Assembly: GCA_000961745.1 (NCBI GenBank) | Contig: LAEA01000077.1 | Location: forward strand, 1 to 33,834 | Direction: 5' to 3' | Source of the DNA: Rhodospirillaceae bacterium BRH_c57 | Lineage (GTDB): Bacteria; Pseudomonadota; Alphaproteobacteria; Rhodospirillales; Rhodospirillaceae | Length of the DNA: 33,834 bases | Shown: positions 23,434-31,743 of the stretch, piece by piece | Numbering within the stretch: the stretch's first letter is position 1 | How the letters are laid out: every line of letters starts with the position of its first letter | Notes under the pieces: generated by a model | The model's input: only the letters and a program-made list of their open reading frames with translations | What the model was told of the DNA's origin: nothing | The model's database searches: none | Made by a program: the position numbers and the translations under genes

Positions 23434-24672
23434 ATGTCCGTTCCGCCCGATGCCCGGTCCCTCAACCGGCCCGATCCCCGTTCGCTGCCCGTCGCGGTTC
23501 TGCTGACCGCCCTGGTCGCGTTCGGGCCGATTTCCACCGACATGTACCTGCCGTCGCTGCCCGACATGACGCGGGCGTTCGACACCACGGTATCGCACGT
23601 TCAGTTGACGCTGTCGGTGTTCATTGCCGGGTTCGCCTGCGGGATGCTGGTCTATGGGCCGCTGTCCGACCGCTTTGGGCGCCGCCCGGTGCTGCTGGGC
23701 GGGGTGGCGCTGTACATGCTGGCCTCGGTCGCCTGCCTGTTCGCGCCGACCATCGAGGCGCTGATCGTGTCGCGCTTCGTGCAGGCCATCGGGGCCTGTG
23801 CCGGGCCGGTGCTGGCCCGCGCCGTGGTGCGCGATGTCTACACCCGCGAGGAAGGGGCGCGGATGCTGTCCTACATGGCCTCGGCCATGGCCCTGGCCCC
23901 GGCCGTCGGGCCGATCCTGGGCGGTTGGCTGCATGCGACGCTGGGCTGGCGGTCCAACTTCGGCGCCCTGACGCTGTTCGGCGTGGCGGTGCTGGCGGCA
24001 ACGTGGTGGATGCTGCGCGAGACCAACACCCGCCGCGATCCCCTGGCGCTGAAGCCGTCGCGGATGCTGCGCAACTATGCCTCGCTGTTCGCCTCGCGCG
24101 TGTTCATGGGCTACACCCTGACCGTGGGCTTTGCGTTCGGCGGGCTGTTCAGCTTCATTTCGGGCAGTTCGTTCGTGGTCATCGACGTGCTGGGCGTCGC
24201 ACCGTCCAACTTCGGCTATGTGTTCGCCGCCGTGGTGGTGGGCTACATGAGCGGCGCGTTCTCGTCGGCCAAGCTGACCATGAAGCTGGGCATCGAGCGG
24301 GTCCTTTTGATCGGCACCGCCCTGGCCACCGCCGCCGGGGGTATCGTCGCGGCCCTGGCCCTGTCTGGCATCCAGGAGGTGGCGGCCATCGTCGCCCCGA
24401 TGATCGTCTATTTCTTCGCCTGCGCGCTGATCATCCCCAACGGCACGGCCGGGGCCATCGGGCCATTCCCCAGCAAGGCGGGCACCGTGTCGGCCCTGCT
24501 CGGCTTCTTGCAGATGAGCCTGGGTGCCACCGCCGGCGGGCTGGTCGGTTTGTTCCATAACGGCACCACGGTGCCGATGACCGTGACCATCGCCCTGATG
24601 GGCGCCGCGTCGCTGGCCGCCTATGCCTTCATCGTGCGGGGCGCGGTAGAGGTCCCGGAGGAAGCCTCTTAG
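23434..24672 (+). CDS. Bcr/CflA-family multidrug efflux MFS transporter
   Basis: This 412-residue protein has 12 predicted helices. The Bcr/CflA signature is clear: 'ISTDMYLPSLPDMTRAF' in the first helix-loop, 'GPLSDRFGRRPVLLGG' between helices 2 and 3, and 'PAVGPILGGWL' in helix 5. The family exports drugs such as bicyclomycin, chloramphenicol or sulfonamides by proton antiport. It diverges from the CPBP gene, and its stop overlaps a convergent small membrane gene by 4 bp. Substrate unknown. Confidence 0.93.
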   Translation: MSVPPDARSLNRPDPRSLPVAVLLTALVAFGPISTDMYLPSLPDMTRAFDTTVSHVQLTLSVFIAGFACGMLVYGPLSDRFGRRPVLLGGVALYMLASVACLFAPTIEALIVSRFVQAIGACAGPVLARAVVRDVYTREEGARMLSYMASAMALAPAVGPILGGWLHATLGWRSNFGALTLFGVAVLAATWWMLRETNTRRDPLALKPSRMLRNYASLFASRVFMGYTLTVGFAFGGLFSFISGSSFVVIDVLGVAPSNFGYVFAAVVVGYMSGAFSSAKLTMKLGIERVLLIGTALATAAGGIVAALALSGIQEVAAIVAPMIVYFFACALIIPNGTAGAIGPFPSKAGTVSALLGFLQMSLGATAGGLVGLFHNGTTVPMTVTIALMGAASLAAYAFIVRGAVEVPEEAS

Positions 24673-24845
24673 GTATCCGGCGCGGCGAGTCGCTGATAAG
24701 CCAACGCCACGCGGCGCTGGTGGCTGTGCAGGATGGTGCGCAGGCGGGTTTCCTGACGGTGCAGGAGGGGCGCCACAGCCAAAGCCAGGGCGCCGAGCAG
24801 GACAATGGCGGTGGGGCCAACCAATAGGCTGAGCGTCTGGTCCAT
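24669..24845 (-). CDS. Small single-span membrane protein (58 residues), uncharacterised
   Basis: ATG 24845 with AGGAG seven bases upstream opens a 58-residue protein: a short N-terminus, one hydrophobic helix (about residues 6-26, LSLLVGPTAIVLLGALALAV) and a basic C-terminal half with many Arg and His, probably cytoplasmic. I recognise no family. A consensus CtrA box lies 50 bases upstream, and a weak hairpin followed by TTTTTT lies directly before the ribosome site. It ends in a 4-bp overlap with the convergent transporter gene. A frame to 24902 exists but lacks a ribosome site. Confidence 0.65.
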   Translation of the reverse strand: MDQTLSLLVGPTAIVLLGALALAVAPLLHRQETRLRTILHSHQRRVALAYQRLAAPDT

Positions 24846-24894
24846 TTCTCTGCTCCTAAAAAACATTCCGAACCATACTGTTACGGGATGTTCT

Positions 24895-24909
24895 TTAAGC
24901 ATCGGTTAA
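24895..24909. promoter_or_regulatory. Consensus CtrA-binding box TTAA-N7-TTAA
   Basis: TTAA at 24895-24898 and TTAA at 24906-24909 are separated by exactly seven bases, the full CtrA consensus known from Caulobacter and used across alphaproteobacteria. It lies in the 150-bp region between divergent genes, 50 bases before the small membrane gene and 87 bases before the 234-residue gene. Binding is inferred from sequence only. Confidence 0.6.
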
Positions 24910-24995
24910 GGCGCTGCCCGCAGCCGGACGGAACAAGGCGCGCGAAACGATACTCATGCTGGACGCGCCTTGGAAAACTGTTTTAGATAAGCCCT

Positions 24996-25700
24996 ATGGA
25001 TGAGGAAGATAAGACTGGTGTGTTAGGCTGTACGGCGGCGTTGCTGGTTATCGGCGCGTCGATTGGCGGCGTCGTGTGGTTCATCAACCGCGACGTCGGC
25101 CCCGAGCCCGAAACCCAGGCGGCAGCCACGCCTGCGGCCGAGGCACCGCGCAGCACCCCGATCACGCGCGTTTCGCCGGTACGCGAAAAGACCGTGGTGG
25201 CCAAGGCCGCGCCGATCGTCCCGTTGGCCCGCAAGATCGTCGTCGGCGAAACAGCGGACGCCTCTCCGCCGGCAGCGGTAACGGTCAGCGCCGCCGTCCA
25301 GGATCTCGGTCAGGTGACCGACCAGGGGCCGCCACCGGGCGCCGTCCAGGTCGTCGCCACCGTGCTGGAGGCCGAGCAACTCTGCTACCATGGCCGCGTG
25401 GCACGCCGGGCGCCCAGCCTATTCGACCCGAACGGCTTTGCGATCACCTACGGAGCCGACACCTTCAACACCGGCAATCCCAGGCCGCGCCTGGAGTTCT
25501 TTTTCCACCCGCCGTCGGCGCCAACGGTCGCCACCTTCCTCAGCATGACCGACGAGGACATGCCCGGCTTCCCGGCTGACCACGAGTTGCCGGTGGTCTA
25601 CGACGAAGGGGCCATTCATGCCGTGGTCGCCCGTTGGGTCGCCGCCATCGCCACCGAAACCTGCCCGGCTCCCGTTCCGGCACCTAACGCCGCCAACTGA
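24996..25700 (+). CDS. Uncharacterised membrane-anchored envelope protein (234 residues)
   Basis: The protein begins with an acidic MDEEDK, a single hydrophobic helix (about residues 8-29), then a Pro/Ala-rich linker of about 70 residues and a compact C-terminal region from about residue 95 with 'YHGRVARRAPSLFDPNGFAI', 'RPRLEFFFHPP' and 'HAVVARWVAAI'. Two Cys in this region (in 'QLCYHG' and 'TETCPAP') could form a disulfide. Topology should be one span with the body in the periplasm. I recognise no family. It diverges from the 58-residue membrane gene around a CtrA box and is followed by yjbQ after 87 bases. Confidence 0.75.
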   Translation: MDEEDKTGVLGCTAALLVIGASIGGVVWFINRDVGPEPETQAAATPAAEAPRSTPITRVSPVREKTVVAKAAPIVPLARKIVVGETADASPPAAVTVSAAVQDLGQVTDQGPPPGAVQVVATVLEAEQLCYHGRVARRAPSLFDPNGFAITYGADTFNTGNPRPRLEFFFHPPSAPTVATFLSMTDEDMPGFPADHELPVVYDEGAIHAVVARWVAAIATETCPAPVPAPNAAN

Positions 25701-27846: not shown

Positions 27847-28731
27847 GTGATCATCTCGGCCAGCTATCGCACTGACATTCCGGCATTCTATGGCCCATGG
27901 TTCCTGAACCGCCTGAAGGCGGGGTTTGTCGAGGTCACCAACCCCTATGGCGGCCCGGTGAGCCGGGTGGATCTGCGGCCCGAAGCGGTGGATGGCATCA
28001 TACTATGGACCCGCAACCTGGCCCCGCTCCTGCCGCGCTTGGAGGCCGTGCGAGCAGTGGCGCCGGTGGTGGTGCAGTACACGGTTCTGGGCTATCCGGC
28101 CGTGCTCGATCGATCCGTGGTGGCACCCGAGCGGTCGGTGGAGGTGTTGCAGCGCCTCGCCAGCGACCACGGTCCACGTGTCGGCGTATGGCGCTATGAC
28201 CCCATCGTGCTCACCAGCCTGACCCCGCCAGCGTGGCACGTCGAGACCTTCGGGCGACTGTCCGAGGCCCTGCGTGGGGCGGTGGACGAGGTGGTGGTCA
28301 GCTTCGTCCAGATCTATCGCAAGACCCGCCGCAACCTCGACCGGGCCGCGGCCGAGTGTTTCACCCCGCAATGTTTCACGTGGAACACTCCGGAGGACGC
28401 TGAGAAGCAGGCCCTGTTGCGCACCCTCGCCCCAATCGCCACCGCCAACGGCCAGCGCCTCACCCTGTGCGCCCAGGCCGACCTGCTGCTGCCCGGCGTC
28501 GAGGAGGCCGCGTGCATCGACCCGCACCGTCTGGCCGATGTGGGCGGAAGCCCCCTCTCCGCCCCCGCCAAGCCACACCGCAAAACCTGCCGCTGCGCCC
28601 AGTCGCGCGATATCGGCGCCTATGACACATGCCCCCACGGCTGCGCCTACTGCTACGCCGTGCAAAGCCGGGATCGGGCCAAGGCCCTCTATCAGGCCCA
28701 TGACTCGATGGCGGCGCAACTCGGGCGGTAA
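27847..28731 (+). CDS. DUF1848 family protein
   Basis: This 294-residue protein matches DUF1848: 'IISASYRTDIPAFYGPWF' at the start, 'VDGIILWTRNLAPLL', 'VGVWRYDPIV' and a C-terminal 'CRCAQSRDIGAYDTC..GCAYCYA' cluster (C248, C250, C262, C266, C269). The CxxxCxxC-like spacing recalls iron-sulfur sites of the radical SAM type, but it is C-terminal, so a classical radical SAM assignment would be wrong without more evidence. Start GTG 27847 has GAGG upstream. Codons 176-181 contain a near-perfect parS site. Confidence 0.85.
   Translation: MIISASYRTDIPAFYGPWFLNRLKAGFVEVTNPYGGPVSRVDLRPEAVDGIILWTRNLAPLLPRLEAVRAVAPVVVQYTVLGYPAVLDRSVVAPERSVEVLQRLASDHGPRVGVWRYDPIVLTSLTPPAWHVETFGRLSEALRGAVDEVVVSFVQIYRKTRRNLDRAAAECFTPQCFTWNTPEDAEKQALLRTLAPIATANGQRLTLCAQADLLLPGVEEAACIDPHRLADVGGSPLSAPAKPHRKTCRCAQSRDIGAYDTCPHGCAYCYAVQSRDRAKALYQAHDSMAAQLGR
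28372..28387. promoter_or_regulatory. parS: parS-like ParB-binding site (one mismatch)
   Basis: TGTTTCACGTGGAACA differs from the parS consensus TGTTTCACGTGAAACA at one base. It lies inside the DUF1848 coding region, about 3.3 kb from the perfect site at 31728. The half-site TGTTTCAC also occurs at 28357-28364. Confidence 0.65.
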
Positions 28732-31075: not shown

Positions 31076-31715
31076 GGCGCACCTCGGAAAGTCGCAGGAT
31101 GGTAGCGGCGGGCTCGGTCCGGCTGGGATGCCTCTCGACCAAAATGTCCCACAGGGTGTGTGCTTCGGTCAACTCCGCCTCAACATTCTGCCCCTTGAGG
31201 AACAGGCACTGGGTGTGAGGCGCGAGAAACGGGGCCGCAAAGTCAAGCAGTTGGGCAACCGGCGCCAGGGCGCGGGCGGTAATCACATCGGCCGGAAACG
31301 GAGCCAGAGCCTCGATCCGTGCCGTGTGCACCGTCACGGCAACCCCGACGGTGCGCGCGACCTCGCGCAGGAAGGCCCCCTTGCGGACGTCGGACTCGAT
31401 CATGTGGACGTCCGGAACGCCGAGGATGGCGAGCACCAGGGCCGGAAATCCCGCCCCCGATCCGAAGTCCACCAGGGTCTTTGTCCCCGGCGGCAGCAAC
31501 GGGAAAAGCTGCGCCGAGTCGAGCATGTGGCGGCGCCAAAGATCAACCAGCGTCGATTTTCCGACCAGATTGATGCTACCCTGCCACTTGACGAGGAGGT
31601 CAGCGTATACCCGGAGTCGGTCCAGCGTTTCACGTGAAACACTAGTGTCGCGCTGAAAGTCCTCCGGCGTCAGCGGCCGGAAGGCGTCGCGGTTCGGGCG
31701 CGCCGGAACGGGCAC
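31062..31715 (-). CDS. rsmG: 16S rRNA (guanine527-N7)-methyltransferase RsmG
   Basis: This 217-residue SAM methyltransferase has 'LVDFGSGAGFPALVLAI' with the SAM loop at residues 83-92 and 'HMIESDVRKGAFLREVAR'. It modifies G527 of 16S rRNA; loss gives streptomycin resistance in many species. GTG 31715 is the start. Residues 26-30 (VSRET) are encoded by a parS-like site, an arrangement seen in many bacteria. mnmG lies 113 bases upstream and parA overlaps downstream. Confidence 0.95.
   Translation of the reverse strand: MPVPARPNRDAFRPLTPEDFQRDTSVSRETLDRLRVYADLLVKWQGSINLVGKSTLVDLWRRHMLDSAQLFPLLPPGTKTLVDFGSGAGFPALVLAILGVPDVHMIESDVRKGAFLREVARTVGVAVTVHTARIEALAPFPADVITARALAPVAQLLDFAAPFLAPHTQCLFLKGQNVEAELTEAHTLWDILVERHPSRTEPAATILRLSEVRREPA
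31626..31641. promoter_or_regulatory. parS: parS site inside rsmG (one mismatch)
   Basis: CGTTTCACGTGAAACA keeps the perfect 14-bp palindrome GTTTCACGTGAAAC and differs from consensus only at the first base. It lies in the rsmG coding region, encoding VSRET. Confidence 0.85.
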
Positions 31716-31727
31716 CGCAATCCCCTT

Positions 31728-31743
31728 TGTTTCACGTGAAACA
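31728..31743. promoter_or_regulatory. parS: Perfect parS site between mnmG and rsmG
   Basis: TGTTTCACGTGAAACA is an exact match to the consensus parS palindrome. It lies 12 bases upstream of the rsmG start and about 100 bp from the second site in rsmG. Together they should nucleate ParB loading. Confidence 0.95.

Follow-up and report, generated by a model that had tools for sequence, protein, structure and literature searches.

A TTAA-N7-TTAA box upstream of an orphan 58-codon gene as a possible lineage-specific CtrA site in Rhodospirillaceae bacterium BRH_c57

Does the TTAA-N7-TTAA box lying between two uncharacterised membrane protein genes of Rhodospirillaceae bacterium BRH_c57 serve as a CtrA site, and if so, for which gene? 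We addressed this question in a window of 33.8 kb (the whole stretch of DNA analysed, 33,834 nucleotides) and in the assembly to which it belongs (3.9 Mb in 274 contigs, 82% complete). The box, TTAAGCATCGGTTAA, has the TTAA-N7-TTAA sequence that is the criterion for a full CtrA site and is the sole exact match in the window, as an earlier note made from the sequence had stated; an exact box turned up in one of 100 dinucleotide shuffles of the window (mean 0.01). It lies in an intergenic gap of 150 bp with 50.7% GC (window, 65.4% GC), flanked by a leftward 58-aa ORF and a rightward 234-aa ORF (Table 1). Hydropathy analysis gave one strongly hydrophobic stretch of 19 residues in each product, which together with the ORF calls agrees with the earlier description of a one-span and a membrane-anchored protein. 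Neither protein reached the Pfam or NCBIfam cut-offs, and the 234-residue protein is thus, as had been said, without a known family. An Rfam search over positions 24600-25100 returned one match, at chance level.

Table 1. Positions of the box and of the features on either side of it
Feature	Position	Strand	Remarks
58-aa ORF	24669..24845	-	one hydrophobic span (window from residue 7), basic C-terminus; orphan
Shine-Dalgarno AGGAG	24853..24857	-	7 nt before ATG
Candidate -10 TATGGT	24872..24877	-	17 nt past second TTAA on minus strand
TTAA-N7-TTAA box	24895..24909	+	palindromic half-sites; minus-strand reading TTAACCGATGCTTAA
Perfect 9-bp inverted repeat CAAGGCGCG-N21-CGCGCCTTG	24934..24972	.	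between box and 234-aa gene
Possible own -10 TTAGAT of 234-aa gene	24983..24988	+	7 nt before ATG; inferred from sequence
234-aa protein	24996..25700	+	N-terminal membrane anchor, low-confidence linker, about 100-residue alpha/beta C-terminal domain

Assignment of a CtrA site calls for ctrA in the same genome, and analysis of the assembly showed that CtrA is encoded there, with 63% identity to the Caulobacter query and a match of 390.6 bits to the NCBIfam profile NF045991 (cut-off 350). The objection foreseen by the earlier note, that CtrA might be absent, is therefore removed, and the genome scan that it had proposed did find the motif at flagellar and cell-cycle promoters. Besides the focal box there are seven exact sites, three of which stand in a CtrA-type context. 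The first occupies -65 to -51 relative to the ctrA ATG, in the gap separating ctrA from a gene for a FliI-like ATPase, which a FliJ-like gene follows. The second is 160 bp from flgB on one side and 73 bp from an FlhB-like gene on the other; the third is flanked by the gene of a Flp pilin, 267 bp away, and the gene of an OmpR-type response regulator. The pilin-side site is the weakest of the three, because 267 bp is long for an activator site. Of the remaining four, one is inside a helicase-like ORF, one precedes by 21 bp a gene whose product has a QRPTase-N domain, one is at the AT-rich end of a contig and one is next to a transposase-like gene.

As controls we used 25 of the 33 TTAA pairs of other spacing, having dropped seven N12 pairs (mostly one repeated element) and one N11 pair overlapping an N7 site; their neighbours were classified by Pfam for 26 proteins and judged from the first 60 residues for the others. 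No flagellar structural gene, pilus gene or ctrA adjoined any of these 25 sites. Chemotaxis genes (CheB; CheB/CheR) adjoined two of them, a response regulator gene one and a histidine-kinase-like gene another. When only the strict context is counted (ctrA, flgB and Flp pilin/response regulator), the comparison is 3/7 against 0/25 (Fisher P 0.007), and when chemotaxis and signalling genes are included it becomes 3/7 against 4/25 (P 0.16). On the strict count, the motif marks CtrA-type promoters in this genome. Taken together, the presence of CtrA and the sites at ctrA and flgB make a regulatory reading of the box plausible and give it a stronger standing than a bare motif would have.

The most serious alternative is that the box arose by chance, an AT-rich gap of a GC-rich genome holding two TTAA words 11 bp apart to which nothing particular binds, in which case the 58-aa ORF, if real, would have an ordinary promoter. 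We regard this as a substantial possibility, clearly below an even one. The rarity of the motif claimed earlier holds within the window, as the shuffles indicate, but not genome-wide, where its eight distinct exact sites in 3.9 Mb stand against nine of the reversed control pattern. That control is also commoner than the box in each of the seven relatives searched, and about two to three such sites are expected by chance in the genome according to the spacer control and the matrix described below. The number of TTAA pairs was 0, 2, 4 and 5 for spacers N3 to N6, 8 for N7, and 2, 3, 8, 2 and 7 for N8 to N12. The N7 count exceeds the mean of 3.25 for N3-N6 and N8-N11 (Poisson P 0.018), and it is equalled by N10. 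The reversed-control counts and the N10 peak mean that the number of sites alone is no proof of function, and of the eight sites three or more appear to be accidental (helicase-like ORF, AT-rich contig end and transposase-like gene). The strict contrast with the control sites weighs against the chance explanation. We also observed that TTAAAGCGGTTTGCGTTTAA-like words occupy six of the seven N12 places of this genome (C3, C17, C28 twice, C39 and C113); they appear to be copies of a repeat.

The regions upstream of ctrA were examined in 30 of the 59 matching genomes. An exact box is present at 6 of the 30 loci, namely in this genome and in all five nearest relatives (Insolitispirillum peregrinum, two Novispirillum itersonii strains and two Haematospirillum, names inferred), and when up to one mismatch is allowed the count rises to 27 of the 30, this genome included, mostly with the form TTAA-N7-TAAA. 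Upstream of flgB, TTTAC-N6-TTAA was found in 8/8 genomes (this one and 7/7 relatives; L117-L124), and in seven of these eight another CtrA-like box lies farther upstream. Read by eye, the sequences of two relatives have TATGCT 15 nt after the flgB box. The flgB boxes represent a predicted flagellar promoter of the CtrA type that is conserved in the family.

A position weight matrix was trained on the ctrA and flgB boxes of the relatives, which are related and non-independent sequences, with this genome left out. The focal box scores 17.84, much like the genome's own ctrA box (18.05), a similarity that also argues against chance; the two flgB boxes score 22.28 and 16.56 and the pilin-side box 13.65, and the box near the QRPTase-N gene is also high (18.27). 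In the window the focal box has the top score and the runner-up 11.5. Matrix ranks are only indicative, because the 230 kb ranked were picked for TTAA pairs, and in Markov sequence of the window's composition about 2.4 hits of at least 17.8 are expected by chance per 3.9 Mb. The focal box fits the form TTAA-N6-GT(T/A)AA, as do the ctrA and flgB boxes of Novispirillum, Insolitispirillum, Haematospirillum and further members of the family. This form (TTAA-N6-GTWAA) occurs at six places in the 3.9 Mb, including ctrA, flgB and the focal box; the other three (C108, C163 and C178) are without CtrA-type context.

The explanation that we tentatively prefer, and that we hold to be just short of an even bet, is that the box is a genuine lineage-specific CtrA site serving the small one-span 58-aa protein. 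On the minus strand the box is followed by 17 nt, TATGGT, a leader with AGGAG and the ATG at 24845; by chance, a -10 match as good as TATGGT is expected in about 5% of tries in each direction. The fitting -10 and Shine-Dalgarno sequence speak against mere chance; the failure of a sigma-70 scanner to detect a promoter counts against the preferred explanation. The 58-aa ORF has a GC content by codon position of 0.75/0.46/0.80, resembling neighbouring genes. The leftward ORF could also be read as 77 aa from a start at 24902, within the box; we discarded this form, as a Shine-Dalgarno sequence precedes the 58-aa start only.

If the box serves the 58-aa gene, phosphorylated CtrA would bind both TTAA half-sites, the second of which (24895-24898) would overlap the -35 of a leftward promoter. 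TATGGT would then work as the -10. The transcript would begin near 24865 and reach, after some 20 nt of leader carrying AGGAG, the ATG of the one-span membrane protein, whose expression would track CtrA activity alongside the flagellar and pilus genes. We infer CtrA binding, the start site, its direction, activation and the role of the 58-aa peptide from the sequence. With a start at about 24865, the predicted geometry puts the motif's 5' nucleotide near -44 and has the second half-site span roughly -33 to -30. The part of the Caulobacter study considered here (PMC4287350) places the 5' nucleotide of the full motif near -35 at activated promoters, with which the leftward geometry, by analogy, appears to agree.

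That the box serves the rightward 234-aa gene instead, or both genes divergently, is improbable. The shared upstream gap would allow it and divergent CtrA promoters are known, as described in the part of PMC6180460 considered here, but the best rightward hexamer at fitting spacing matches TATAAT at only 2 of 6 positions, the 234-aa gene has its own candidate -10 (TTAGAT), and the 9-bp inverted repeat stands between that gene and the box. The leftward -10 at fitting distance, together with these three features of the rightward side, leads us to place the box with the 58-aa gene. The earlier suggestion that both genes are candidates for CtrA control thus retains its 58-aa half, with a fitting -10, and finds little backing in its 234-aa half; the envelope, polarity or motility functions that it proposed for them are conjectural. 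The TTAGAT may possibly give a leaderless mRNA. The inverted repeat, which might act as an operator or form a hairpin in the RNA, has a fold z of -2.03, and 6 of 200 shuffled sequences folded as stably. The predicted structure of the 234-aa protein has a mean pLDDT of 60, with its C-terminal 100 residues mostly at 70-90, and gave no PDB fold match at E <= 0.001. The protein belongs to an unnamed membrane-anchored family with a conserved C-terminal domain and invariant cysteines C130 and C223.

Conservation bears on all these explanations. Relatives of the 234-aa protein occur in 15 of the 72 other family genomes (45-49% identity in the nearest three), in a set in which this genome is the sole member of its genus. 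The check proposed earlier, whether orthologous intergenic regions keep the box, turned out negative: an exact box was found within about 420 bp upstream of none of the 15 orthologues, which also counts against service to the 234-aa gene, and a one-mismatch box upstream of one (about 0.17 expected by chance). Since the ctrA box is present in exact form in all five nearest genomes, this test would have detected a conserved focal site. Conservation upstream of orthologues is usual for CtrA sites, though not strictly defining, and the orthologues of the 234-aa gene do not show it. None of ten other window genes tested was present in the relatives' 234-aa neighbourhoods (16 kb; 6 kb for one), and the pair of 58-aa and 234-aa genes was found in no relative. 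The 58-aa ORF had no match at E <= 0.01 among the 72 other family genomes, only one chance-like match besides itself in a sample of 297 genomes of the order, and none in a tblastn search of plasmids with the protein; on these searches the gene is an orphan. The match in the order sample, a weak one in L092 (E 0.001, 36 residues), falls, by eye, in an ABC-transporter permease gene, and the tblastn pieces in the relatives' loci were all weak and scattered; both were set aside. The unconserved box and the orphan ORF are what chance would also give.

It is very improbable that the box is part of an origin or centromere region and acts on replication or segregation instead of on a gene, since, in spite of the parA-parB-rsmG-mnmG-like genes (ParB by Pfam, the others by eye) and three parS-like sites of the window, the box stands alone and not in a cluster, the window has no perfect DnaA box (five with one mismatch against 2.35 expected, the nearest 6 kb off) and there is no clear GC-skew switch at the box. 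The parS-like sites (28372-28387, 31626-31641 and 31728-31743; two exact, one with one mismatch) compare with 0.08 expected, and their position in and around the gene cluster indicates that the window is centromere-proximal and probably origin-proximal.

Comparison with known systems shows both likenesses and differences. As far as the part of PMC4287350 considered here describes Caulobacter crescentus, the focal box has the same sequence and spacing as the full site and would lie towards the -35 of the proposed leftward promoter, and the boxes of this genome at ctrA, flagellar and Flp pilin genes are at typical CtrA targets; unlike the Caulobacter sites, the focal box is a predicted site, is unconserved and has neighbours that are not known targets. 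The flagellar CtrA promoters of Rhodobacter sphaeroides, in the part of PMC6180460 considered, likewise have a box between divergent genes, whereas the focal locus has a fitting -10 in one direction only and a spacing of 7, where 6 bp is discussed for that species. The ctrA and flgB boxes of Novispirillum, Insolitispirillum and Haematospirillum are kept across genera and the focal box is not. Our literature search found no paper on the focal site and none joining CtrA with these three genera.

At best, the focal box is an ordinary regulatory site, and it could still be a product of chance. The wider picture, in which one spirillum lineage gained a full site and thereby brought into its CtrA regulon an orphan one-span membrane protein of 58 residues, encoded in the parABS neighbourhood, specific to the lineage and timed with the cell cycle or motility, is possible and rather doubtful. 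The family-wide form of the ctrA and flgB boxes, a by-product of this work, may be more useful than the focal site itself, as the recurrence of TTAA-N6-GT(T/A)AA at both genes across genera supports CtrA autoregulation and flagellar control in the family. If the preferred explanation is true, one lineage-specific small membrane protein would be added to the CtrA regulon of the Rhodospirillum-like spirilla.
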